This document shows positions 10,144-50,803 of a DNA stretch of 64,000 bases, in pieces (position 1 is the stretch's first letter; every line of letters starts with the position of its first letter). The notes beneath the pieces were generated by a model. The model did not search any database. It was not told the origin of the DNA and saw only the letters and a program-made list of their open reading frames with translations. The stretch spans positions 1 through 64,000 of the forward strand of contig CALXAH010000009.1 in the NCBI GenBank assembly GCA_944386225.1, in the 5' to 3' direction. The stretch is from an uncultured Gemmiger sp. GTDB taxonomy: Bacteria; Bacillota; Clostridia; Oscillospirales; Ruminococcaceae. The position numbers were made by a program, and so were the translations under genes.

Positions 10144-10166
10144 AGTTGTCGAAAATTGAATAGCAA

Positions 10167-10259
10167 CTTATCAAGAGCGGCGGAGGGACAGGCCCTGTGA
10201 AGCCCGGCAACCTGCATTGTATGTAAGGTGCCAAATCCTGCGGGAAACCGAAAGATAAG
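10167..10259 (+). promoter_or_regulatory. SAM-I (S-box) riboswitch aptamer
   Basis: P1 is formed by CTTATC (10167-10172) and GATAAG (10254-10259). Between them are the S-box signatures AAGAG, GGAGGGAC/GCCCTGTGAA, CCCGGCAACC and AGGTGCCAAATCC in the expected order. S-adenosylmethionine binding stabilises P1 and so favours the downstream terminator. It controls metK, giving product feedback on SAM synthetase. Confidence 0.96.
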
Positions 10260-10266
10260 CGTGTAT

Positions 10267-15219: not shown

Positions 15220-16620
15220 ATGATCCATCAGTATAAATTGAACGGCTACAACATCGTGCTGGACGTATACAGCGGCTCTGTGCATGTTGTGGACGAGGTA
15301 GCTTATGACATTATTGCCCTCTATCCCCAGACCCCGGAGGACGAGATCGTGCGCCGGATGATGGAAAAGTACGGCGACCGTCCGGATGTTACCGAGCAGG
15401 ACCTGCGGGACTGTATCGAGGACGTGCGCGCTTTGCAGAAAGCCGGCAAACTCTACAGTGAAGACGTGTACGCCGATATGGCGTTCGACTTCAAAAAGCG
15501 CAGCAACGATATCAAGGCGCTGTGCCTGCACGTGGCGCATACCTGCAACCTGAACTGCGAATACTGCTTTGCCAGCCAGGGCAAGTATCATGGCGACCGG
15601 GCTCTTATGAGCTTTGAGGTGGGCAAGCAGGCGCTGGATTTCCTGGTTGAGCACTCCGGTACCCGCCGCAACCTGGAAGTGGACTTTTTCGGCGGTGAGC
15701 CGCTGATGAACTGGCAGGTTGTCAAGGATCTGGTGGCCTACGCCCGCAGCATCGAAAAGGAAAAGAACAAGAACTTCCGCTTCACCCTGACCACCAACGG
15801 TGTGCTGGTGGACGATGAGGTGATCGAGTTCGCCAATAAGGAGATGCACAACGTGGTCATGAGCCTGGACGGCCGCAAGGAAGTCCATGACCGGCTGCGC
15901 CGCAACTATGCGGGGGAGGGCAGCTACGACAAGATTGTGCCCAAATTCCAGGAGTTTGCCCGCCGCCGCGGCAACAAGGACTATTATGTGCGGGGTACCT
16001 TCACCCACAATAACCTGGATTTCACCAACGACATCTTCCATATGGCTGACCTGGGCTTTACCGAACTGAGCATGGAGCCGGTGGTCTGCGCCCCTGGTGA
16101 ACCCTACGCCCTGACCGAGGAGGATCTGCCTGTACTGAAAGAACAGTATGAGATCCTGGCCAATGAGATGCTGCGCCGCCGCCGGGAAGGCCGTCCGTTC
16201 ACCTTCTACCACTATATGATCGATCTGACCCACGGCCCCTGCATCTACAAGCGGATCGCGGGCTGCGGCAGCGGTACCGAGTATCTGGCTGTCACCCCCT
16301 GGGGCGACCTGTACCCCTGCCATCAGTTTGTGGGGGATGAGAAGTACCGTATGGGCGATGTGTGGCGGGGTGTGACCAACACCGAGCTGCGGGATGAGTT
16401 CAAACTCTGCAACGTGTATGCCCGCCCCGGCTGTAAAGATTGCTGGGCACGCCTGTACTGCTCCGGCGGCTGCGCGGCCAACGCCTACCATGCCACCGGC
16501 AGCATCCGCGGTGTGTACGAGTACGGCTGCGAGCTGTTCCGCAAGCGGATGGAGTGTGCCATCATGCTGCAGGTCGCCCAGGCGGAGGACAAAAAAGCTG
16601 CCCAGGACGCTGAAAAATGA
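15220..16620 (+). CDS. scfB: SCIFF maturase, radical SAM/SPASM thioether-forming enzyme
   Basis: A 466-residue radical SAM enzyme. The N-terminal ~90 residues match the peptide-recognition region (YNIVLDVYSGSVHVVDEVAY). The [4Fe-4S] motif is CNLNCEYC (Cys109, 113, 116). The C-terminal SPASM region carries CGSGTEYLAVTPWGDLYPC, GCKDCWARLYCSGGC and a final YGCELF cysteine, binding two auxiliary clusters. It forms thioether bonds in the ScfA core (CteB-type chemistry). The ATG at 15220 starts the conserved MIHQYKLNGYNIVLDV; upstream in-frame codons run through the hairpins and are not conserved. A strong terminator follows the stop. Confidence 0.97.
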   Translation: MIHQYKLNGYNIVLDVYSGSVHVVDEVAYDIIALYPQTPEDEIVRRMMEKYGDRPDVTEQDLRDCIEDVRALQKAGKLYSEDVYADMAFDFKKRSNDIKALCLHVAHTCNLNCEYCFASQGKYHGDRALMSFEVGKQALDFLVEHSGTRRNLEVDFFGGEPLMNWQVVKDLVAYARSIEKEKNKNFRFTLTTNGVLVDDEVIEFANKEMHNVVMSLDGRKEVHDRLRRNYAGEGSYDKIVPKFQEFARRRGNKDYYVRGTFTHNNLDFTNDIFHMADLGFTELSMEPVVCAPGEPYALTEEDLPVLKEQYEILANEMLRRRREGRPFTFYHYMIDLTHGPCIYKRIAGCGSGTEYLAVTPWGDLYPCHQFVGDEKYRMGDVWRGVTNTELRDEFKLCNVYARPGCKDCWARLYCSGGCAANAYHATGSIRGVYEYGCELFRKRMECAIMLQVAQAEDKKAAQDAEK

Positions 16621-23517: not shown

Positions 23518-24810
23518 TTATACGCTGCGATCCTTTTCGATCATGATATCCAGGATGGTGCGGTCGGTTTCCACCATGCCCGGGTTGCTGATGCGGCCCA
23601 TGTTGCGGATTGCCTGCTCCGGCGTCACGGCGCAGATGCCGTCGGTCGCGCTTACCACAACGCCGCTTACGGCCAGATAAGCGCTCATCAGGGCGGCACT
23701 GGATGCGGTAGCCAGCTTCAGGGCACAGCCGATTTTACCTCCGTCACAGATCATGCCGGTCAGGTTGGCCGACATGTTGATGATTGCAGCGCCGATTTGC
23801 GCATCGGTACCGCCCATCAGCCAGACCATCGCGGCACTGGCGGCAGCGGCAGCGCTTACACCGCATCCGCAGGTGGCGCTCAGCTTGCCGGTGAACAGCT
23901 TGATGTACACATTCAGCATATGGGAGAATGCCAGTGCTTTGACGGTGGCTTCCCGGCCGGCATTCTGGTGTCGGGCCATCTCCATCACGGGGATAATGGC
24001 TGTGATACCGTGATTGCCACTGCCAGCGCTGCTCATAACCGCGTAAGGGCAGCCACTCATACGTCCTTCGGCGCTGCTGGCGACCCGCAGCATGGTATTG
24101 CTGAACAGGTTGTCTCCCAGCACATCCGTGTCAAGCTGTTTCTTCAATGCGCTGGCAATTCCGATGCCCAGGGAATTCTCCAGCCCGTAGTCGGCCAGAT
24201 CGCCGTTCATCTTGGCGCCGTCCATCATGAAGTCCAGCTCTTCAGCGGTGGCGCTGTCTACCAGTTCCCGGATTTCCGCCACCGTCATGGTGCGTAGTTT
24301 CTCGTGCAGTTCATCTTCGCCATCCAGTGAATATTCTTTCTGCACCAGCACCTGATTGTTTGCACTGGTAAAGACAATATTGGAGTGGGTGTTTCGAATG
24401 GTGCTGATGCCCAAACCGCGGGTCGTGATGATCTCCGCGTGGGCATACAGCTGGGTTTCTTCTTCGGCAATGGTTACCGATACCTGCTTTTCCTCTACCA
24501 GGCGGGTTGCTTCCTTGCTTACAATGCTGTTGATTTCTTCCAGAAGCTGCAGTCCCTTTTCGGGATTGCCCAAACAGGCGCCCAAAGCGGCAGCATATTT
24601 GAGACCGACACGGTCAAATCCGGGGATACCTACCGACATCCCGTTTTTGTACACACCCGGATTTACCTGCACTTTTACCGACACAATCTGCCCGCCGATA
24701 GCATGGTAGGCATCAGCGGCGGCCAGCGCTACACACACGGGCTCCGTGCACCCCAATGCGGGAACGACCTCTTGCCGCAGCAGGGCCAGCATTTCCTGTT
24801 TGTTCAGCAT
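23518..24810 (-). CDS. cyuA: L-cysteine desulfidase family protein (CyuA/UPF0597)
   Basis: A 430-residue protein of the UPF0597/L-serine dehydratase-alpha-related family. It has [20 protein letters not shown] near the start, [16 protein letters not shown] in the middle, and C-terminal cysteines in [13 protein letters not shown] and [13 protein letters not shown] that can ligate a [4Fe-4S] cluster. Characterised members degrade L-cysteine to sulfide, ammonia and pyruvate (through 2-aminoacrylate). The ATG at 24810 follows AAAGGAGA. A near-perfect sigma-54 promoter lies about 80 bp upstream, and the sigma-54 activator gene is divergent. D-amino-acid or serine substrates cannot be excluded from sequence. 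Confidence 0.87.
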
Positions 24811-24880
24811 ATGGTTCCATCTCCTTTTTATCTTTGGCCGGTTTCCCTGTGTACCGGCAATACGGTTCACTGTAGTACAA

Positions 24881-24896
24881 GCAAGAATTGTGCCAA
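24881..24896 (-). promoter_or_regulatory. Sigma-54 (-24/-12) promoter of the desulfidase gene
   Basis: Read on the reverse strand, TTGGCAC (24896-24890), five bases, TTGC (24884-24881) matches the RpoN consensus TTGGCACN5TTGC exactly. The gene start is about 70 bp downstream. Confidence 0.9.
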
Positions 24897-24979
24897 AGTT
24901 TGCAGGCAAGGTTTTTCTGTACAGGGGCGGAAACTATTCGGGCGATTAAGTGGGCTATACGGTCAAAAACAATAAAAAT

Positions 24980-25008
24980 ATTGACAGAATGCATTGTTTT
25001 CTGTCAAT
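24980..25008. repeat. 10-bp perfect inverted repeat in the divergent region
   Basis: ATTGACAGAA (24980-24989) and TTCTGTCAAT (24999-25008) are separated by nine bases. It lies 84-112 bp upstream of the desulfidase -24 element and ahead of the activator gene. It may be an operator for autoregulation or for a second regulator; TTGACA within it could also serve as a -35 element for the activator gene. Confidence 0.75.
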
Positions 25009-25025
25009 ATAAAAGTATAAATGGT

Positions 25026-25043
25026 AATTGGTTATAAATTGGT
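25026..25043. promoter_or_regulatory. AATTGGT direct repeats, candidate activator binding site (desulfidase side)
   Basis: AATTGGT occurs at 25026-25032 and 25037-25043, 11 bases apart (one helical turn), about 130-150 bp upstream of the desulfidase -24 element. The same heptamer is repeated upstream of the other sigma-54 promoter (27121-27148). Confidence 0.5.
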
Positions 25044-25057
25044 CGGGCGGTGATAAG

Positions 25058-27130
25058 GTGAAAAAGAAGGTGGCAATTGTAGCGCTGGATCCGCAGGCGG
25101 GACAGTTTTACGCCAAGCAGGTGCGGGAAATTTTTGGTACACGGATCCGGATTTCCGCCTACAGTGTCCGGGATGGTTCGGTGGAAAATCTGGAACGAGC
25201 GGATTTGTATATGGTTTCTACCGATGCATTTGAGTCGGTGGGGGATCTGCGCCAGTATATCCCCATTGACGGGGAAGTCATAGAGATCCAGGTCACCTTT
25301 TTATGGGAAGTGGTTCGCCAGCTGCAAAGCCTTCCGGCGGGAACGCGGGTGCTGTTTGTAAATTTAAGCGACAAGATGGCGCGGGAGGCAGTAAGCCGTC
25401 TGAACCAGCTGGGGGTTAATCAGCTGGTATTCGAGATGTATTACCCTGGTTCACCTCTCCAGGTTCGTCCGGAAGACTATGACCTGGTTGTGACCCCGCA
25501 TGAACAGCGATATGCGCCCCCCTGTATCAAAAAGGTGCTGGACATTGGTCAGCGGGTGCTGACAGCTTCCACGATGACCGAGGCTGCGCTGCGGCTGGGC
25601 CTGGATGAGTTGCTGGAAACTCCGCGTTTTCAGGCGTACCAGAATGCGGTGGCAGCCAATACATACAGCTTTGATCAGATGTTCAATCGCAGCCGCCGTC
25701 TGGAAAGCCAGTTTGAACTGCTGCTGGAAATTCTGGAAGAGGGCATGATCGGGGTGAACGAAAAAGGTGAGGTGTTCGCCTGCAATCGCAAAGCGGAGGA
25801 AATCACCGGGATCAACAGTAAACTTGCGCTCCATCAGGAGGCCGCTGCCGTGTATCCCTATCTTCCTTTCCGGGAATGCCTGAAAAGCCGCCGGCCATTG
25901 CCACCGCGTGTCATGAAGATACACGGCACCAATGTAAATGTGACCATGGCGCCGGTGCTGCGTGGCGGCGACTGTATCGGCGCCTTTGCCGGCCTGCAGC
26001 GATTCAGCGATGCGGAAAATCGTCAGAACGAACTGCGCAGCCAGCTGCTGCATAAAGGGCATCACGCCAAGTATACCTTTGATGATGTGCTGGGAAATTC
26101 GGCGGCTATTCGCCGCAGCGTCAGCATTGCCCGGCGCATGGCGGCCAATGACCTTCCGGTTCTGCTGATCGGTGAAACCGGTACGGGCAAGGAACTGTTT
26201 GCCCATGCGGTGCACAATGCGTCGCCCCGGTCAAACGGCCCGTTTGTAGCGCTGAATTGCGCTGCCATGCCGGAAAACCTGTTGGAAAGTGAACTGTTCG
26301 GTTATGAGGATGGGGCGTTTACCGGGGCACGGCGGGGCGGTAAGCCCGGTATGTTTGAGTTTGCCCACGGCGGAACCCTCTTTCTCGATGAGGTAGAGGG
26401 TATGAGCCCGGCGCTGCAGATCAAGCTGCTGCGGGTATTACAGGAACGGGAAATCATGCGGGTGGGCGGTAACCAGATTATCAGTGTAAATGTGCGGATT
26501 GTGGCGGCTACCAACGAAGATCTGGAGCAACGGGTAGAGGAGGGCAGCTTCCGCCGGGATCTGTATTACCGGCTGAATACGCTGCCTGTGCTGATTCCGC
26601 CGCTGCGGGAACGGGACGAGGATCTGTTCCTGCTGATCGAAAATTTCCAGACCAGATTGGGGGCACGATTCCGTCTGTCGGAGGAGGTGCGGGCCCTGCT
26701 GGCCAGTCATCAGTGGCGGGGAAATATACGGGAATTGCGCAATGTGGTGGAATATTTCAGTTGTACAGGAAACGCGGTGATAGGCCCGGAGGATCTGCCG
26801 CCCACCTTCCGGTATTGTCCCTTGCGGGAAGAACGCCCAGCGCCTGTCCGTCCGGCATCGGCGCCGGAGCCGGCAGCTGTACAGGCGGGTTCGGAAGAGG
26901 CCAGGCGATTTGTACTGCACCGCCTGCTGCTGGCTGCAGAGAGCGGGGCCGGACGGGACAGTCTGCTGCGTGCCGCCCATGAGGAAGGGATCTCTCTTTC
27001 TCAACTGGAGGTGCGTCACGCGCTGGCGTCTTTAAGTCGGGAAGGACTTGTGCAGGTCAGCCGTGGACGCGGCGGTACACGGATTACCGAGCAGGGGATC
27101 CTCTTTTGCCGGAAAAATAAAATTGGTTAA
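25058..27130 (+). CDS. Sigma-54-dependent transcriptional activator (bEBP) with PAS domain
   Basis: A 690-residue enhancer-binding protein. Residues 1-190 form an uncharacterised receptor-like domain ([18 protein letters not shown]...). Next comes a PAS-like domain around 225-320 ([21 protein letters not shown]), then an AAA+ domain with GETGTGKE (about 371), the sigma-54-contacting [13 protein letters not shown] (GAFTGA about 419) and DLYYRLN. The C terminus (about 615-690) looks like a winged helix ([33 protein letters not shown]) rather than the usual Fis-type HTH. I take the GTG at 25058, six bases after GGGCGGTGAT; a TTG at 25028 is alternative. Both neighbours carry sigma-54 promoters, so it most likely activates them. 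The ligand is unknown; cysteine or a derivative is the obvious guess. Confidence 0.9.
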
Positions 27131-27148
27131 TTGGTTGGAATACCAATT
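27121..27148. promoter_or_regulatory. AATTGGT repeat cluster, candidate activator binding site (lyase side)
   Basis: AATTGGT at 27121-27127 and 27129-27135, and its inverse ACCAATT at 27142-27148. Together they include the dyad ATTGGT-6 bp-ACCAAT. The cluster is 147-174 bp upstream of the -24 element at 27295 and overlaps the last codons of the activator gene. Confidence 0.5.
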
Positions 27149-27294
27149 TGTGCTTGTGAGAATGCCGGCAAGGGAATACTTTTTGGTAATAGGAGGATCA
27201 AAACGTCTGTATCAGGCTAAACTGCACAAAAGGGAAAAGAAATAGTAAGATAAAACGCTGAAACTTTCTTGCAATTGCCGGGGGTGTCCGTTGA

Positions 27295-27310
27295 TTGGCA
27301 CGGGAGTTGC
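27295..27310 (+). promoter_or_regulatory. Sigma-54 (-24/-12) promoter of the C-S lyase-symporter genes
   Basis: TTGGCACGGGAGTTGC matches the RpoN consensus, with GG at -24 and GC at -12 correctly spaced. The lyase start codon is about 70 bp downstream, the same geometry as at the desulfidase promoter. Confidence 0.92.
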
Positions 27311-27380
27311 TATGGAATAAGCGAAATCTTGTGAGCGCCGACAAGGACTCGCAGTAATACGGGAAGGACGGATCAGACCT

Positions 27381-28550
27381 ATGCAATACAATTTTGATCA
27401 GGTAGTGGATCGCAGCCGCAACAATGCGGCCAAATACGATGAACGGGTGAAAAAATTCGGAACCGATCAGGTGATTCCTCTGTGGGTGGCGGATATGGAC
27501 TTCAAAACCGCGCAGCCGATCATCGATGCGCTGACCGCGCGGGCACAGGAGGGGATCTGGGGCTATACCAGCCGCCCCGACAGCTACTTTGATGCGATCT
27601 GTGGCTGGCAGCAGCGGCGCAACGGCTGGACCATTGACAAAAGTCTGGTCAGCTGGAGCCTTGGTGTGGTTCCGGCGCTGAGCGCGCTGGTGCGCCTCTT
27701 TACACCGGAGGGCGGCAAGGTGCTTATCCAGACCCCGGTCTACTCCGAGTTCTATGATGTAACCGAAGCCTGGAACCGCACCGTCGTGGAGAATCAGCTG
27801 GTGGAAAAGGACGGCCGCTGGACTATCGACTGGGAGGATTTTGAGGCGAAACTGCCGCAGGTAAGCATGTTCCTGCTGTGCAGCCCTCATAACCCGCTGG
27901 GTATTGTCTGGACACGGGAAGAGTTGATCCGCATGACGGATCTGTGCCGCAAGTACAACGTACTGCTGGTAAGCGACGAGATCCATTCTGATCTGATCTT
28001 CCATGGTAAGAAGCACATTCCCACCGCCAGCCTGTCGCCGGAGGTGGCTTCCCAGGTGGTGACCTGCATTTCCGGTACCAAAACCTTCAATCTGGCGGGC
28101 CTGCAGGCTTCCACCACCGTGTTCCCGAACAAGCGCATGAAGGAAGTGTACGACAAGTTCTGGGGTGCGATGGACATTCACCGGAACAATGCGTTCAGCC
28201 TGACCGCCATGCAGGCCGCCTTCAATGAGGGCGAAGAGTGGCTGGAGCAGCTGTTGGAATATCTGGACGGCAACTTCCGCTTTGTGGCGGATTACTGCGC
28301 GCAGTATATCCCGCGTATCAAGCCCACCGTGCCGGATGCCACCTATCTGATGTGGCTGGACTGCCGGGAGCTGCATATGAGCAACGAGGAACTGCGCCGG
28401 TTCATGATCGAAAAAGCCGGTCTGGGGTTGAACGAGGGCTGGAGTTTTGGACGCAGCCTGACCGGATTCATGCGGCTCAACGCTGCCTGCCCGCGCAGTG
28501 TGCTGGAGCAGGCTATGAAACAGCTGCAGGCAGCGGTGGAAGCGCTGTAA
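27381..28550 (+). CDS. patB: PLP-dependent C-S beta-lyase/aminotransferase (PatB/MalY family)
   Basis: A 389-residue class I/II aminotransferase-fold protein of the MalY/PatB group. Motifs include PLWVADMDF, GIWGYTSRPDSYF, CSPHNPLGIVW, VSDEIHSDLIF, the Schiff-base lysine in SGTKTFNLAGLQ (Lys234), and the C-terminal arginine region TGFMRLNAACPRSVLEQA. These enzymes cleave cystathionine, cystine or cysteine S-conjugates by beta-elimination to thiol, pyruvate and ammonia. The sigma-54 promoter at 27295 drives it, and a DAACS symporter follows 90 bp downstream. The 2-aminoacrylate intermediate it releases is the substrate of RidA, encoded at 30022. Confidence 0.92.
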   Translation: MQYNFDQVVDRSRNNAAKYDERVKKFGTDQVIPLWVADMDFKTAQPIIDALTARAQEGIWGYTSRPDSYFDAICGWQQRRNGWTIDKSLVSWSLGVVPALSALVRLFTPEGGKVLIQTPVYSEFYDVTEAWNRTVVENQLVEKDGRWTIDWEDFEAKLPQVSMFLLCSPHNPLGIVWTREELIRMTDLCRKYNVLLVSDEIHSDLIFHGKKHIPTASLSPEVASQVVTCISGTKTFNLAGLQASTTVFPNKRMKEVYDKFWGAMDIHRNNAFSLTAMQAAFNEGEEWLEQLLEYLDGNFRFVADYCAQYIPRIKPTVPDATYLMWLDCRELHMSNEELRRFMIEKAGLGLNEGWSFGRSLTGFMRLNAACPRSVLEQAMKQLQAAVEAL

Positions 28551-28640
28551 TTCAGACAAATGGTTTTGTGCAGCCTGGTGTACAGGCTGCAGATGCAGAC
28601 GGAACGACAACCCAAACGAGAAGAAAAAAGGAGCAATACA

Positions 28641-29912
28641 ATGGCTAACCAGACCGTGCGCAAAAAGTCTTTCTGGGAGCAGTACAAACTCCCGATCCTG
28701 CTGTTGGGCGGCATTGCCGTCGGTTCCATCATTGGCGTAGTGTCTCCCGCTCTGGGGCAGACCCTGAAGCCTCTGGGCGAGATTTTCCTGAACCTGCTGT
28801 TCACCATTGTGGTGCCGCTGGTGTTTGTGTCCATTGCCTCGGCGGTGGGCAGTATGATGAATATGAAGCGCCTGGGCAAAATTCTGGGCAGCACCATCCT
28901 GGTGTTCCTGGTTACCAGTGCCATTGCGGGCGTCTGTGTGCTGTGCTGGGTCAACCTGTTCAGCCCCTCGGCCGGCACCAATATCCAGATGGGCCAGGCC
29001 GAAATGGGCGAGATGCAGAGCGCATCCGAAATGCTGGTCAGCAGCCTGACCGTCAGCGACTTCCCCGAACTGCTCAGCCGTCAGAACATGCTGCCGTTGA
29101 TTATCTTTGCCATTCTGTTCGGTTTCTGCGTGTCCGCCTGCGGCGGTGACGAGAGCCCGGTGGGCAAACTTCTGGCCAACCTGAACCAGGTTATCATGAA
29201 GTTTGTGGATCTGATCATGAAGATTGCTCCCATCGGCCTGGGCGCGTATTTCGCCAACCTGATCGGCGAATTTGGCCCCGAACTGCTGGGCGATTACGGC
29301 CGCTCCATGGTGGTGTACTATCCGCTGTGCCTGCTGTATGTGCTGATCTTCTTCCCGCTGTACGCCCTGTTTGCCGGCGGTAAAACCGGCGTGCGGAAGA
29401 TGCTCAAAAATATCTTTGCCCCGGCCGTTACCGCGTTTGCCACCCAGAGTTCGGTAGCCACCCTGCCGATCAACAAGGAGGCCTGCGACAACATCGGCGT
29501 ACCTAAGGACGTAAGCGACCTGGTTCTGCCGCTGGGCGCCACGGCGCACATGGACGGTTCGGTGCTGAGCTCCATTGTAAAGATTGCGTTCCTGTTCGGC
29601 GTGTTCGGGATGCCGTTTACCGGCGCGGACACCTATGCGATGGCCATTGTGGTGGCTGTAATGTCCGCTTTTGTGCTCAGCGGCGCGCCCGGCGGCGGCC
29701 TGGTAGGCGAAATGCTGATCGTCAGCCTGTTCGGATTCCCGGCGGAGGCTTTCCCGCTGATTGCCACCCTGGGCTTCCTGTTTGACCCTGCCGCCACCTG
29801 CCTGAACGCGTCCGGCGATACTCTGGCCTCCATGATGGTGGCCCGTCTGGTGGAAGGCAAAGACTGGCTGAAGAACGCCGCTGCCCGCAAGGCTGAGGGG
29901 GAGCAAGCTTGA
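28641..29912 (+). CDS. Dicarboxylate/amino acid:cation symporter (DAACS family), possible cystine importer
   Basis: A 423-residue Glt-type sodium or proton symporter. It has about eight membrane helices and the family signatures TIVVPLVFVSIASA, the serine-rich hairpin TAFATQSSVATLPIN, the helix-7 region PLGATAHMDGS, and the HP2 region LSGAPGGGLVGEM. Family substrates include glutamate, aspartate, serine/threonine, C4-dicarboxylates and L-cystine (TcyP). Cystine is suggested only by position, 90 bp after the C-S lyase and under the same sigma-54 promoter. The ATG at 28641 follows AAAAGGAG; a longer upstream reading frame has no such site. A sigma-70 promoter for ridA overlaps its last codon. 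Confidence 0.9.
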   Translation: MANQTVRKKSFWEQYKLPILLLGGIAVGSIIGVVSPALGQTLKPLGEIFLNLLFTIVVPLVFVSIASAVGSMMNMKRLGKILGSTILVFLVTSAIAGVCVLCWVNLFSPSAGTNIQMGQAEMGEMQSASEMLVSSLTVSDFPELLSRQNMLPLIIFAILFGFCVSACGGDESPVGKLLANLNQVIMKFVDLIMKIAPIGLGAYFANLIGEFGPELLGDYGRSMVVYYPLCLLYVLIFFPLYALFAGGKTGVRKMLKNIFAPAVTAFATQSSVATLPINKEACDNIGVPKDVSDLVLPLGATAHMDGSVLSSIVKIAFLFGVFGMPFTGADTYAMAIVVAVMSAFVLSGAPGGGLVGEMLIVSLFGFPAEAFPLIATLGFLFDPAATCLNASGDTLASMMVARLVEGKDWLKNAAARKAEGEQA

Positions 29913-29936
29913 TTTTGCAGCCCCTTGTGCTATAAT
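29909..29936 (+). promoter_or_regulatory. Promoter of ridA
   Basis: TTGATT (29909-29914), 16-bp spacer, TATAAT (29931-29936), starting at the symporter stop codon. It would give ridA expression independent of sigma-54. Confidence 0.7.
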
Positions 29937-29955
29937 CAAACCAGAAAATGCTGCT

Positions 29956-29983
29956 GTCCCTCCGCCTGTTGCGGCGGAGGGAC
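29956..29983 (+). other. Intergenic hairpin in the ridA leader
   Basis: GTCCCTCCGCC (29956-29966) pairs perfectly with GGCGGAGGGAC (29973-29983), but no T-run follows. It may stabilise or mark processing of mRNA between symporter and ridA rather than terminate. Confidence 0.6.
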
Positions 29984-30021
29984 GCTGCGCAGATAATCAG
30001 ACAACAGGAGGATGTATCCAA

Positions 30022-30390
30022 ATGAAAATCATTGCTACCAACAATGCGCCCGGCGCGATCGGACCGTACTCCCAGGGCTATGAGACCGGCAGTTTTGTAT
30101 TCACTTCCGGCCAGCTGCCGGTAGATCCTGCCACCGGCAATATGCCCGAGGGCATTGCCGCCCAGGCGGAGTGGAGCTGCAAGAACGTGGGCGCCATTCT
30201 GGAGGCTGCCGGCTCCGGCTTTGACAAGGTTATCAAGACCACCTGCTTCCTGGCCGACATGGGCGATTTTGCCGCCTTCAACGAAGTGTACGCCAAGTTC
30301 TTTACCTCCAAGCCCGCCCGCAGCTGCGTGGCCGTGAAGGATCTGCCCAAGGGCGCTCTGTGCGAGATCGAAGCGATCGCCGAGAAGTAA
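30022..30390 (+). CDS. ridA: RidA/YjgF reactive-intermediate deaminase
   Basis: A 122-residue RidA-family protein. It contains NAPGAIGPYSQG (8-19), FTSGQLPVDPATG, a conserved-looking VIKTTCFLADMGDF, and the C-terminal signature PARSCVAVKDLPKGALCEIEAIA with the arginine that binds the substrate carboxylate. RidA hydrolyses 2-aminoacrylate and related enamines/imines to keto acids, preventing damage to PLP enzymes. It sits 110 bp downstream of the C-S lyase-symporter pair, and both the lyase and the divergent desulfidase should generate 2-aminoacrylate. AGGAGGAT precedes the start. It can be read from its own promoter and perhaps by read-through. Confidence 0.95.
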   Translation: MKIIATNNAPGAIGPYSQGYETGSFVFTSGQLPVDPATGNMPEGIAAQAEWSCKNVGAILEAAGSGFDKVIKTTCFLADMGDFAAFNEVYAKFFTSKPARSCVAVKDLPKGALCEIEAIAEK

Positions 30391-30504: not shown

Positions 30505-30781
30505 TTACCGATTTATCAAGATAAAGCGTTGATGAGGCCAAGTAAGGCGAATGACCGCTTTCAGAGAGCTGCCGGGTGGTGCAAGGCAGCAGCGTGCTTT
30601 GCCCGAAACATCCCCTCGGAGCTGCAGGCTGAACCGCCCCACTTGCCGGGCCAAGTAAGCTACGCCGGCTGACAGCCGTTATCCTGTCGCCCATTCGGCT
30701 GCCTGGCTGCAGCCTGATGCGGACAGAGAGGTCCGGTTTTCCGGGCAATAAGAGTGGTACCGCAGAGAGCTTGTTTTACAA
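30505..30781 (+). promoter_or_regulatory. T-box (tRNA-sensing) leader RNA
   Basis: The region holds the T-box landmarks in order: GATGAGG with AAGTA (30531-30545), the AGAGAGC stem I element (30563-30569), the GGTGGTGCAAGG apical region, a specifier region ending CTGAACCG (30629-30636), the CCGTTATC element (30676-30683), and the T-box sequence AGAGTGGTACCGC (30751-30763). Uncharged cognate tRNA would stabilise an antiterminator. Reading the codon directly after GAA gives CCG (proline); a one-base shift gives CGC (arginine), so the cognate tRNA is unresolved. It precedes a BASS-family transporter gene, not a synthetase. Confidence 0.9.
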
Positions 30782-30818
30782 GCCTTTGTCTCTTGCATGC
30801 GCAGGGGGCAAAGGCCTT
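30782..30818 (+). terminator. T-box terminator
   Basis: A 15-bp stem (30782-30796 with 30800-30814, several G-U pairs; outer GCCTTTG/CAAAGGC) followed by a TTTTT run. It is mutually exclusive with the T-box antiterminator. Confidence 0.88.
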
Positions 30819-30910
30819 TTTGTTTGCCTGCGCGGGATCAGGCTGACACCGGGCCGCGGACCCGGTTCAGGATATAGCCGTCAAGCGGCAAACTGAGAGG
30901 AGAAATGAAC

Positions 30911-31903
30911 ATGGAAGCGTTGAGGAAAGTAAGCAAATTTGCGGGCAAGTACATGGCCATTATTGTTCTGGTCGTGGCTGTTATTGCTTTCTTCGTACCC
31001 GAGAGTTTTTTGTGGGTGGGCAAGGATTATAATGTGGTCACCCGCATCGTTACGGTGAACAACCTGCTGATGGTGGTTATGTTCGGCATGGGCCTGACCC
31101 TGAAGCTGGACGACTTTAAGGTTGTGTTCTCCCGTCCCAAGGACGTGCTGGTGGGCTGCGCCGCGCAGTTCGTCATTATGCCGCTGCTGGCGTTCCTGCT
31201 GACCAAGGTCTTTGCCCTGAGCCCGGAGCTGGCCGTGGGCGTCATTCTGGTGGGTACCTGCCCGGGCGGTACTTCCTCCAACGTGATGACCTTCCTGGCT
31301 AAAGGTGATGTGGCCCTGAGCGTAGGCATGACCGCCTGCTCCACCATTCTGGCTCCGTTCCTGACCCCGGCCCTGACCTACCTGTATGCCCATGAGACCG
31401 TTACCGTCAACATGATGGATATGTTCATGAGCATCGTAAAGATTGTGATCATCCCCATTGCCCTGGGCTTTGTCATCAACAAACTGTTTGGCAAGTTTAC
31501 CCAGGCCGTCGTGGAGATTCTGCCGCTGATCTCGGTGGTGGCGATCGTGACCATCGTGGGCGCTGTGGTGGCCCCCAATGCCGAAAAGCTGTTTGCCAAC
31601 GGCATCCTGATCCTGACCGTCGTGATCCTGCACAACCTGCTGGGCTATGCCCTGGGCTATGGCGTGGGCAAGCTGCTGAAGATGAGCGACCCCAAGTGCA
31701 ACGCCGTATCCATCGAAGTGGGCATGCAGAACAGCGGTCTGGCTACCAGCCTGGCCGGCACCGTCTTCCCGGACCTGGCTCTGGCCACTGTGCCCGGCGC
31801 CCTGTTCAGCGTATGGCATAACATCTCCGGCTCCATCGTGGCCAACATCATGGCCGCTGCCGCGGAGAAAAAGGCCGCCAAAGCCGCTGCCGAAAGCAAA
31901 TAA
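30911..31903 (+). CDS. Bile acid:sodium symporter (BASS) family transporter
   Basis: A 330-residue membrane protein with about nine to ten helices. BASS-family features are MFGMGLTLKLDDF, the crossover motif VGTCPGGTSSNVMTFLAKGDVALS, and the second crossover region SIEVGMQNSGLATSLAG. Bacterial BASS proteins carry varied organic anions (bile acids, pantothenate, ketopantoate, 2-keto acids); bile acid transport should not be assumed from the name. The second ATG (30911) is eight bases from AGGAG, whereas the first (30905) is only two bases away. Control by a T-box suggests the cargo relates to an amino acid or its precursor. An alanine/lysine-rich tail ends the protein. Confidence 0.9.
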   Translation: MEALRKVSKFAGKYMAIIVLVVAVIAFFVPESFLWVGKDYNVVTRIVTVNNLLMVVMFGMGLTLKLDDFKVVFSRPKDVLVGCAAQFVIMPLLAFLLTKVFALSPELAVGVILVGTCPGGTSSNVMTFLAKGDVALSVGMTACSTILAPFLTPALTYLYAHETVTVNMMDMFMSIVKIVIIPIALGFVINKLFGKFTQAVVEILPLISVVAIVTIVGAVVAPNAEKLFANGILILTVVILHNLLGYALGYGVGKLLKMSDPKCNAVSIEVGMQNSGLATSLAGTVFPDLALATVPGALFSVWHNISGSIVANIMAAAAEKKAAKAAAESK

Positions 31904-47947: not shown

Positions 47948-50803
47948 TTGAGCAACGATAAAATCATCATCCGGGGCGCCCGGGAACACAACCTGAAAAA
48001 CATCGACCTGACCATCCCCCGGGACAAGCTGGTGGTAATGACCGGCCTGTCCGGCAGCGGCAAGTCCAGCCTGGCCTTCGATACGATCTACGCCGACGGC
48101 CAGCGCCGCTATATGGAAAGCCTGTCCAGCTATGCCCGGCAGTTCCTGGGCCAGATGGAAAAGCCGGATGTGGATGAGATCCAGGGCCTTTCCCCGGCGG
48201 TATCCATCGACCAGAAAACCACCAGCCGCAACCCCCGTTCCACGGTGGGCACGGTGACCGAGATCTACGACTATCTGCGCCTTTTGTATGCCCGTATCGG
48301 CATTCCTCACTGCCCGGTCTGCGGCCGGGAGATCAGCCAGCAGACGGTGGACCAGATGGTGGATACGGTGCTGGCCCTGCCCCAGGGCACCAAGTTTCAG
48401 GTGCTGGCCCCGGTGGTGCGGGGCCGCAAGGGCACCCAGCAGAAAGAGCTGGAGGCAGCCCGCCGCAGCGGCTTTGCCCGGGTGCGGATCGACGGCAACC
48501 TCTACGACCTTGAGGAAGAGATCAGCCTGGAAAAGAACAAAAAGCACACGGTGGAGATCGTAGTGGACCGTCTGTCCCTGAACGATTCGGTGCGCAGCCG
48601 TCTGGCAGATTCTCTGGAAACGGCTCTGAACCTGACCGGCGGCCTGGCCACGGTGGACGTGATCGGCGGAGAAGAGATGCAGTTCAGCCAGAACTACGCC
48701 TGCCCGGAACACGGCATTTCGGTGGACGAGCTGACCCCCCGTATGTTCAGCTTCAACAACCCCTTCGGCGCCTGCCCCACCTGTACCGGCCTGGGCACCT
48801 TTATGAAGGTGGATCCGGAACTCATCATCCCCAACAAAAAGCTCTCCATCCGGGAGGGGGCCATCAAGGCCAGCGGCTGGTACTATGCCGACGGCTCGGT
48901 AAGTTCCATGTACTATGAGGGCCTGGGCAAACGGTACGGTTTCACCCTGGATACCCCCATCTGCGAGATGAGCAAGGAGGCGGTGGACGCCATCCTGTAC
49001 GGCACCAAGGGCGAGCGCATCGAGATGCACCGGGAGAACGAGTTCGGCTCCGGCCGGTACTTCAACGATTTTGAAGGTATCGTCAATAACCTGGAACGCC
49101 GCTTCCGGGAGACCGGCAGCGAGTGGATGAAAGAGGAGATCGCCACCGTTATGAACGGGGTGGAGTGCCCCGACTGTCACGGCCACCGTCTCAAACCCAC
49201 CAGCCTGGCGGTCACGGTGGGCGGCATCGCCATCAGCCAGTTCTGCGACATGAGCGTGCGGGAGGAACTGGAATTCCTGAACAACATCCAGCTTACCGAG
49301 ATGCAGCACCGTATCGGCGACGGCATCCTGAAAGAGATCCGGGAGCGTCTGGGCTTTCTGCAGAACGTGGGCCTGGAATACCTGACCCTGTCCCGGGGTG
49401 CGGCCAGCCTGTCCGGCGGTGAGAGCCAGCGTATCCGTCTGGCCACCCAGATCGGCAGTGCCCTGACCGGCGTACTGTACGTGCTGGACGAGCCCAGCAT
49501 CGGCCTGCACCAGCGGGACAACGACAAGCTGATCGCCACCCTGAAACGCCTGCGGGATCTGGGCAATACCCTGGTGGTGGTGGAGCACGACGAGGATACC
49601 ATGCGCCAGGCGGATTTCATCGTGGATATCGGCCCCGGCGCGGGCGTCCACGGCGGCGAAGTGGTGGCGGCCGGCACGGTGGAGGACATCTGTGCCGAGC
49701 CCCGCAGCATCACCGGCGCGTACCTGTCCGGCCGAAAGCGGATCACCGTGCCCGCCACCCGGCGCAAGGGCAACGGCAACAAGATCCGGATCGTGGGCGC
49801 GCGGGAAAACAACCTGCAGAACGTCACGGTGGACATCCCGCTGGGTACCATGACCTGTGTGACCGGTATCTCCGGCAGCGGCAAGTCCAGCCTGATCAAC
49901 GAAATTCTGTATAAAAAGCTGGCCAGCGAGCTGAACGGCGCCCGTACCCGTCCCGGCCGTCATAAGGAGATCCAGGGCCTGGAATTTGTGGACAAGGTCA
50001 TCGGCATTGACCAGTCTCCCATCGGGCGCACGCCCCGGTCCAACCCGGCCACCTATACCGGCGTGTTCACCGATATCCGCAACGTGTTTGCCCAGACGCA
50101 GGACGCCAAGATGCGTGGGTACGGTCCCAGCCGGTTCAGCTTCAATGTAAAGGGCGGCCGGTGCGAAGCCTGTGAGGGCGACGGCATCCTGCAGATCGAG
50201 ATGCACTTTTTGCCGGACATCTTTGTACCCTGTGAGGTCTGCAAAGGCGCCCGCTACAACCGGGAAACCCTGGAGGTCAAGTACAAGGACAAGACCATCG
50301 CCGATGTGCTGAACATGACGGTGGAGGAAGCCTGCAATTTCTTTGCCAACATCCCCCGCATTCACCGCAAGCTGAAAACCCTGCTGGACGTGGGCCTGGG
50401 CTATATCCAGCTGGGGCAGAGTGCCACCACCCTCTCCGGCGGCGAGGCCCAGCGGGTCAAGCTGGCGCTGGAGCTGAGCAAGCGGGAGACCGGCCGCACG
50501 GTATATATCCTGGACGAGCCCACCACCGGCCTGCATGTGGCCGATGTGCACAAGCTGGTCAAGGTGCTGGACAAGCTCACCGACGCGGGCAACACCGTGG
50601 TGGTGATCGAGCATAACCTGGACATCATCAAGCGGGCGGATTATATCATTGATCTGGGCCCGGAGGGCGGCAGCGCGGGCGGCCGCGTGGTGGCCTGCGG
50701 CACCCCGGAACAGGTGGCCCAGACCCCGGGCTCCTATACCGGCCAGTACCTGAAACCCTTGCTGGAGCGGGACCGGGAGCCTGCCGACCCGCAGCAGAAA
50801 TAA
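47948..50803 (+). CDS. uvrA: Excinuclease ABC subunit A
   Basis: A 951-residue canonical UvrA. It has [21 protein letters not shown], the UvrB-binding domain, zinc fingers CPVCGREI and [16 protein letters not shown], two signature motifs LSGGESQR and LSGGEAQR, and Walker [13 protein letters not shown] and [12 protein letters not shown]. It scans DNA for bulky lesions and loads UvrB. The TTG at 47948 begins [17 protein letters not shown], the usual family N terminus, with GAGGG upstream. It forms an operon with uvrB. A second, shorter UvrA-like gene lies at 6476. Confidence 0.98.

Follow-up and report, generated by a model that had tools for sequence, protein, structure and literature searches.

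Gut bacteria form sulfide from cysteine, an output that has been described as understudied (PMC9016944). In Clostridioides difficile, cdsB requires SigL and the activator CdsR in the presence of cysteine (PMC5767170), an XcyR regulon comprising malY-pepT-hyp is listed for Clostridiales, including Flavonifractor (PMC6615313, Table 1), and Escherichia coli ferments cysteine with CyuP and CyuA (PMC9040844). Here, we analysed 64 kb of contig 9 (CALXAH010000009.1, positions 1 to 64,000, hereafter the window) from the 3.38 Mb genome of an uncultured Gemmiger sp., in which an L-cysteine desulfidase gene diverges from the gene of a sigma-54 activator, followed on the strand of the activator by the genes of a PatB-type C-S lyase, a DAACS carrier and RidA. 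We propose, with a probability of about 0.7, that the whole locus is a sigma-54-controlled cysteine-fermentation module under its own activator. This would make it a compact candidate switch for cysteine-derived sulfide in the gut commensals Gemmiger, Flavonifractor and Fournierella, for which promoters and putative binding sites can be named. The gene identities, sigma-54 sites, arrays, conservation, rpoN and active-site residues described below are read from the sequence itself.

The pattern TTGGCACN5TTGC occurs exactly twice in the window, at 24881-24896 on the minus strand (TTGGCACAATTCTTGC) ahead of the desulfidase gene (23518-24810, minus strand) and at 27295-27310 on the plus strand (TTGGCACGGGAGTTGC) ahead of patB (27381-28550, plus strand). 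Both -24/-12 sites are exact and end 70 bp ahead of the respective start codons, and 100 dinucleotide shuffles gave a mean of 0.08 sites, with none reaching two. With two mismatches allowed, the pattern is not above chance in the window (23 found, 27.9 expected), and a one-mismatch site at 50334-50349 was set aside; it sits within a reading frame that we take to be uvrA-like. Across the genome, the slightly wider pattern TTGGCAYN5TTGC was found at nine sites versus two for the reversed control. Three of the nine are correctly oriented ahead of a gene, namely the desulfidase gene, patB and a diaminopropionate ammonia-lyase frame (58 bp ahead), and the other six were taken as background because each lies inside an open frame of at least 130 codons on one strand or the other. 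The same genome encodes RpoN (PF04552, 159.1 bits, contig G000:C34). Both RpoN promoters of the original prediction are thus borne out, and the sigma factor that they presuppose is present.

A contig scan with the N-terminal domain of the activator (N-domain) returned 28 loci, which together with the window and G020 make 30. Genes were scored as present at these loci by BLAST matches at E 1e-15 or better, and duplicate regions (L032/L037, L034/L038, L035/L042) were counted once. Nineteen of the 28 loci group with the window and G020 in a clade A of 21 members (support 100/100), whereas the join to the Clostridium loci, where long branches meet, is unsure. The clade A activators are 61-96% identical to that of the window over the N-domain and 65-94% over their length; of the loci recovered, that of Gemmiger sp. 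An120 is the closest with a name (94%), and F. plautii also carries a clade A locus (L053). Within clade A, patB lies beside the activator gene in 21 of 21 loci and the divergent desulfidase gene is present in 19, the two misses (L044, L051) being contig ends. In 17 loci, patB is directly followed by a carrier gene belonging to the subfamily of the window's (at least 72%), and ridA was found in 16. The order of desulfidase, activator, patB, carrier and ridA is therefore kept in most of the clade, which was the check in related genomes that the original prediction had suggested. The promoters were kept as well, in Gemmiger, Fournierella, Flavonifractor and relatives: compared with TTGGCAYN5TTGC, the best site of the desulfidase unit has no mismatch in 19 loci and one in the other two, and that of patB has zero, one and two mismatches in 10, 6 and 5 loci, respectively, while letter shuffles of the same stretches never reached zero mismatches and reached one in 0.2% and two in 5% of cases. 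In a mismatch-tolerant best-site scan, the site was located 41-82 bp before patB in 20 of the 21 loci, L044 having its best site elsewhere. The cluster is uncommon in the family, since in a sample of 197 genomes that includes the present one, activator matches at E 1e-60 were obtained in 14 and full-length clade A activators in five.

Seven further loci (L057, L059-L064) form a clade B, with activators 43-46% identical, each accompanied by patB. Behind patB, the loci L057 (6207-12061), L061 (8641-19590) and L064 (8625-19776) carry genes for an AbgT carrier, an M24 peptidase, a CoA-disulfide-reductase-like enzyme and a second desulfidase, in this order, and in L061 and L064 a divergent M20 peptidase gene lies on the other side. 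The second desulfidase belongs to another subfamily (30-31% identical to that of the window in L057, L061 and L064) and is encoded 4.6-4.9 kb behind patB in all seven loci. Domains were determined for L061 and for the peptidases of L064; the reductase of L061 has a rhodanese end, and its match to the reductase model is below the cut-off. Judged by their gene content, these clusters appear to be a variant supplied with peptides or conjugates and equipped to reduce persulfides. In the remaining two loci, both from Clostridium (L055, L056), the activator and patB are present, and the other reference genes were not matched in 20.7 kb. Activator and patB thus occur together in 30 of 30 loci, and PatB is the constant partner, to which desulfidases appear to have been joined twice. 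This paralogous activator clade, which combines patB with predicted peptidases, AbgT, a disulfide reductase and a second desulfidase, is new here.

New as well is the finding that predicted arrays of AATTGGT-type half-sites flank the activator gene and that a motif taken from one side predicts the other. The 10-base motif (roughly AATTGGTYAA) was derived solely from the 92-base stretch that precedes the activator start in 19 loci, two of the 21 clade A loci (L046, L058) having been dropped from this test as near copies; site counts and strand tallies use all 21. On the 150 bases past the activator stop, it gave 50 matches in 17 of the 19 loci at a threshold of 8, compared with 6.9 ± 2.7 (largest 14) in 100 dinucleotide-shuffled sets and three in a control region, and at thresholds of 7 and 9 the counts were 73 versus 12.2 and 30 versus 2.8 in the shuffles. 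Of the downstream half-sites, 47 of 56 are on the minus strand. Upstream, the plus strand carries 67 of 70, a bias that the procedure itself brings about in part, since the motif had been derived from this strand. The prevalence of the minus strand downstream means that both arrays would be oriented alike toward their sigma-54 promoters, with most half-sites some 60-220 bp from the -24 element. In the window, the upstream array (AATTGGT direct repeats in the motif scans, 25021-25045, plus strand) lies between the activator's own promoter and its start codon, upstream of the desulfidase promoter. The second predicted array (27122-27149, minus strand) precedes the patB promoter and overlaps the end of the activator gene with its first part; it consists of an ATTGGT pair and the half-site AAATTGGTAT (27140-27149, minus strand), plus-strand half-sites occurring in it as well. 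Pairs of the form ATTGGT-N2-9-ATTGGT are found three times in the 3.38 Mb genome (once for the reversed control), twice at this locus (25027-25043 and 27122-27135, plus strand) and once on contig 1.

The activator gene itself probably has a sigma-70 promoter at 24981-25009 (plus strand). TTGACA was found as its -35 element in 17 of the 21 loci in a best-match scan, and the -10 element of the window is poor (GTCAAT at a spacing of 16), so that the sigma-70 reading rests on the relatives. In 10 of the 21 loci, the upstream half-sites begin at distances of about 8, 16 and 30 bases past the -10 element of this promoter, and most of the remaining loci retain part of this pattern. Such a placement suggests autorepression, as the upstream array covers the point where the activator transcript begins and binding should therefore also damp activator synthesis. 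The comparative evidence from sites and arrays supports the earlier proposal that one local activator acts together with sigma-54 on both flanking units.

The activator (25058-27130, plus strand; PF00158, 239.7 bits) has about 690 amino acids (aa), comprising an N-domain of about 200 aa, a PAS domain, an AAA+ domain and a C-terminal part. GAFTGA was found in six of six aligned sequences and the Walker A motif reads GETGTGKE in five and GESGTGKE in one; with both motifs in the AAA+ domain and rpoN in the genome, the protein is a bacterial enhancer-binding protein (bEBP). In four members examined, the N-domain had no Pfam match above cut-off, and an assignment as PrpR_N was not supported, none of the four matching PF06506 at E 1; this model had no match in the genome of the window either. 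A six-sequence profile of the N-domain retrieved no chain from the PDB at E 1, and only the N-domain of the window had two sub-threshold matches to methyltransferases (E 0.09 and 0.12), the other three members having none. None of the four C-terminal parts matched the Fis helix-turn-helix (HTH_8) at E 1; below threshold, it was mostly winged-helix families that they matched. Judged from these comparisons, it is a new finding that the activator is not of the CdsR type, with its extra N-domain, a winged-helix-like end and no Fis helix-turn-helix found.

The locus also points to a sensor-domain family for which there is no Pfam model. Of 341 genomes taken from across the class, 30 contain it, and a single genome may have as many as five copies. 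In 14 fetched regions around such copies, the neighbours presumably include amidases, amino acid permeases, M20 peptidases and indolepyruvate-oxidoreductase-like genes, as judged from protein starts, and the wider family thus looks like a set of catabolic switches, each adjoining its target. In the genome of the window, PF00158 matches at six places, but only two of these matches, with about 240 bits, are full-strength ones, and the remaining four score 25-33 bits. The second one adjoins the diaminopropionate ammonia-lyase gene with its sigma-54 site, on the same contig as rpoN (G000:C34:15393-15408 and 15618-16532, loci L070 and L021), and by eye has a Fis-like end. The three well-placed near-consensus sigma-54 sites of the genome hence precede the genes of a desulfidase, PatB and diaminopropionate ammonia-lyase, all of them 2-aminoacrylate-forming lyases. 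A more speculative view, rather unlikely to hold as a whole, is that the activator represents a broad, unnamed clostridial family of sigma-54 activators with an undescribed sensor, that its winged-helix domain reads the AATTGGT half-sites in this clade, that in this lineage sigma-54 was narrowed to the sole task of serving aminoacrylate-forming lyases and that the signal is a cysteine-derived compound or aminoacrylate stress.

The desulfidase belongs to the CdsB/CyuA type with an SDH_alpha fold (PF03313, 180.9 bits) and shares 36% of its residues with E. coli CyuA in a match spanning almost its entire length (E 6e-76). Its closest solved chain is the L-cysteine desulfidase 9fsl (E 9.7e-32), and only L-cysteine desulfidases were matched in the PDB at E 0.1. 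The residues C21, C314, C355 and C362 were kept in all 27 aligned sequences, including E. coli CyuA and clade B, and correspond to one base cysteine and three iron-sulfur cysteines, roles cited in PMC5767170. By homology, the SDH_alpha protein is an L-cysteine desulfidase predicted to act on cysteine. A scan of viral contigs with the desulfidase yielded four pattern matches and no relative. PatB was identified as a pyridoxal phosphate-dependent C-S lyase (TIGR04350, 479.5 bits, cut-off 340) and has an SGTK motif with lysine 234. Desulfidases and PatB-type lyases release sulfide or a thiol, ammonia and pyruvate via 2-aminoacrylate, which RidA hydrolyses. The identity with CyuA, the solved desulfidases and the conserved cysteines fit the catabolism of cysteine that the original prediction had ascribed to these enzymes, and all five genes of its layout were recovered by domain or family models.

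RidA, an enamine/imine deaminase (30022-30390, plus strand; TIGR00004, 160.8 bits, cut-off 106.25), is the sole PF01042 match in the genome. The sigma-70 promoter originally placed before ridA was found again as a sigma-70-like site at 29909-29936 (plus strand; TTGATT-16-TATAAT, TG before the -10 element, 10/12 matches), the scan being weak evidence by itself, with five such sites in the region versus 3.9 in shuffles. The same promoter and terminator scan found no terminator-like site between the carrier gene and ridA, and transcripts from both promoters may thus reach this gene. Because of its own sigma-70-like promoter and its status as the only PF01042 match, ridA is probably also a shared housekeeping gene. 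Between promoter and gene, a strong hairpin lacking a T run is located at 29956-29983 (plus strand); by eye, hairpins of differing sequence occur at the same place in relatives, and there may be a conserved leader structure.

The DAACS (SDF) carrier (28641-29912, plus strand; PF00375, 343.3 bits) is about equally distant from the E. coli members TcyP (24.6%), GltP (24.4%), DctA (25.2%) and SstT (22.3%). In transmembrane segment 8 (TM8; DPAATCLNASGD) it reads DPAATCLN versus DMGRTALN in TcyP, and in 18 of 18 carriers encoded beside patB the aspartate is kept and the arginine replaced by alanine. The TM8 aspartate is described as holding the amino group of the substrate and the arginine its acidic side chain (PMC12668577). 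With alanine in place of the arginine, the protein is therefore probably a carrier of neutral amino acids, for which cysteine is the natural candidate. The cystine carrier of the original prediction was not confirmed: the protein is no closer to TcyP than to other DAACS members and lacks the TM8 arginine. The carrier should accordingly not be assumed to transport cystine, a likely misreading; cysteine and neutral sulfur-containing amino acids are suggested instead. The E. coli importer CyuP is reportedly not a DAACS member. In Flavonifractor An306 (L049, 13910-18163), patB is followed by genes of a Fis-domain sigma-54 activator and a DAACS carrier of a second subfamily (43%), as if that carrier had been brought under an activator of its own.

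In the mechanism that we propose, the activator gene would be transcribed from its sigma-70-like promoter, and the activator would bind to the tandem AATTGGT-type half-sites on either side of its gene, while the N-domain and the PAS domain would sense a signal inside the cell, for which cysteine or a metabolite derived from it is the likeliest candidate. The activator would drive sigma-54 RNA polymerase at two outward promoters, one leading to the iron-sulfur L-cysteine desulfidase and the other to PatB and the DAACS carrier, with read-through into ridA being likely. Cysteine or another neutral sulfur-containing amino acid would be imported by the carrier and feed the two lyases, which would convert the imported compound to sulfide (or a thiol), ammonia and 2-aminoacrylate, and RidA would help to convert the latter to pyruvate. 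Binding to the array would also repress the synthesis of the activator itself. Of this scheme, we infer the induction by cysteine, the reaction flux with its output of sulfide, the substrate of the carrier and the autorepression.

Several observations weigh against this proposal. The carrier is missing or of another subfamily in four of the 21 clade A loci (another DAACS subfamily in L047, none in place in L049 and L058, contig end in L052), and ridA was not found in five (L045, L049, L058 and the contig ends L050 and L052). The patB site has one or two mismatches in 11 of the 21 loci, all in the Flavonifractor part of the clade, where the strict pattern finds no patB promoter in many loci, and two mismatches are reached by 5% of the shuffles. 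The 50 downstream motif matches are not independent events, because the motif was trained and tested on related loci and neighbouring registers may count twice, in the shuffles too. None of the N-domain positions that never vary is a cysteine, and a cysteine signal is not indicated by any known ligand site. A patB relative was present in just three of the 14 regions around copies of the wider N-domain family, so the link to sulfur amino acids would be a trait of the subfamily and not of the sensor family. Finally, the substrate of the carrier could be serine or alanine instead of cysteine.

A possible reading, though not the one we expect to hold, puts PatB at the core of a salvage route for S-conjugates or S-alkyl-cysteines, in which imported S-substituted cysteines would be split into thiol, ammonia and pyruvate and the desulfidase would handle a cysteine side stream. 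The constant pairing of PatB and activator, which extends to the two Clostridium loci lacking a desulfidase within 20.7 kb, would suit such a route, as would the M20 and M24 peptidases and AbgT of clade B, which are expected for peptidyl or N-acyl conjugates, the loss of the arginine for acidic side chains from the carrier and the presence of cysteine-S-conjugate lyases among the high-ranking PDB matches. The desulfidases argue against this reading, however: a divergent desulfidase gene with its own sigma-54 site is present in 19 of 21 clade A loci, the other two being contig ends, a desulfidase of the other subfamily is encoded in seven of seven clade B loci, and by homology both would act on free cysteine.

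The import and catabolism of cystine, as originally proposed, is distinctly unlikely. MalY/PatB enzymes are known to split cystine, and the DAACS family includes the TcyP carriers annotated for it, but the present carrier is equally far (22-25%) from TcyP, GltP, DctA and SstT, deviates from TcyP at the TM8 arginine, and would work in the anoxic gut, where cysteine is mostly reduced. It is very improbable that the locus serves the catabolism of serine or alanine, with the SDH_alpha protein as a serine dehydratase and the carrier importing serine. The fold family, that of the serine dehydratase alpha chain, and the neutral carrier would agree with this, yet the protein scored 24.1 bits with the serine dehydratase equivalog model (cut-off 243.2), it matches CyuA and the solved desulfidase over nearly the full length, a separate SDH_alpha gene is present elsewhere in the genome, and the adjoining PatB is of a C-S lyase family. 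That genes and sites stand together by chance or as housekeeping neighbours, free of shared control, is scarcely credible: ridA has a sigma-70-like promoter of its own and was missed at five loci, but order, promoters and arrays are kept across a 21-member clade whose activators have diverged to 65-94% identity. The sigma-54-controlled cysteine-fermentation module thus remains our preferred reading.

Two leaders were also noted in the window. Next in line after patB, the carrier gene and ridA is a gene for a BASS/PanS-like transporter (30905-31903), which is preceded by a T-box leader (RF00230, 104.5 bits, 30520-30796, plus strand). By eye, its specifier seems to be AUC (isoleucine), a hint that the transporter might handle a branched-chain keto acid or a related compound. 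The T-box, the half-site arrays, the extra N-domain and the conservation go beyond the original prediction. An S-adenosylmethionine (SAM) riboswitch (RF00162, 83.7 bits) is located at 10165-10261 (plus strand) ahead of a reading frame that we take to encode a methionine adenosyltransferase-like protein.

Among the described systems, those of C. difficile offer several points of comparison. There, dpaL2 presumably encodes an aminoacrylate-forming lyase and tdcF a member of the Rid family. Sigma-54 sites assigned to DioR2 precede both genes (PMC7438776, Table 4), a case that concerns diaminopropionate and not cysteine; the second activator of the present genome, with its dpaL gene, is similar. 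In strain 630, CD2732 and CD2733-CD2734.1 resemble the present locus in that a PLP enzyme and a transporter are encoded behind a -24/-12 site beside an activator gene, but the transporter is a Na+/H+ antiporter and no desulfidase is listed there (PMC7438776). CyuR-cyuPA of E. coli shares with our locus a dedicated importer, a desulfidase, the anaerobic fermentation of cysteine and a cysteine-activated regulator, whereas the control described is by CyuR and Crp, not by sigma-54, and the operon lacks PatB (PMC9040844).

The XcyR regulon likewise consists of a sigma-54 activator gene adjoining a malY/patB-type target with a sigma-54 site. In contrast to our locus, its target operon contains pepT and is assigned to the degradation of peptides, and neither a desulfidase nor a DAACS carrier nor RidA is listed with it (PMC6615313, Table 1). 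Here, patB is followed by the genes of the carrier, RidA and the BASS transporter and by no peptidase gene, and M20 and M24 peptidases appear in clade B instead; the present clade, to which F. plautii belongs, may nevertheless be what XcyR denotes in that paper. Closest is CdsR-SigL-cdsB, where a cysteine desulfidase gene with a -24/-12 promoter also lies adjacent to a sigma-54 activator gene and repeated binding sites are likewise found, there within a required stretch that lies 153-223 bp ahead of the start (PMC5767170). CdsR, however, is described as a 591-aa protein of PAS-AAA-Fis architecture, unlike the 690-aa activator presented here, and cdsB is the only target listed for it (PMC6615313, Table 1), whereas the present activator seems to serve patB and the carrier gene, too. 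In the openly licensed PMC literature, as far as its searched parts extend, neither this type of activator nor a desulfidase, PatB, a DAACS carrier and RidA around one sigma-54 activator was found described. The novelty claimed in the original prediction therefore stands for the combination of genes but not for the theme, which CdsR-cdsB (PMC5767170) and XcyR-malY (PMC6615313) already represent: sigma-54-controlled cysteine catabolism is known, and the gene combination and the type of activator are the new part.

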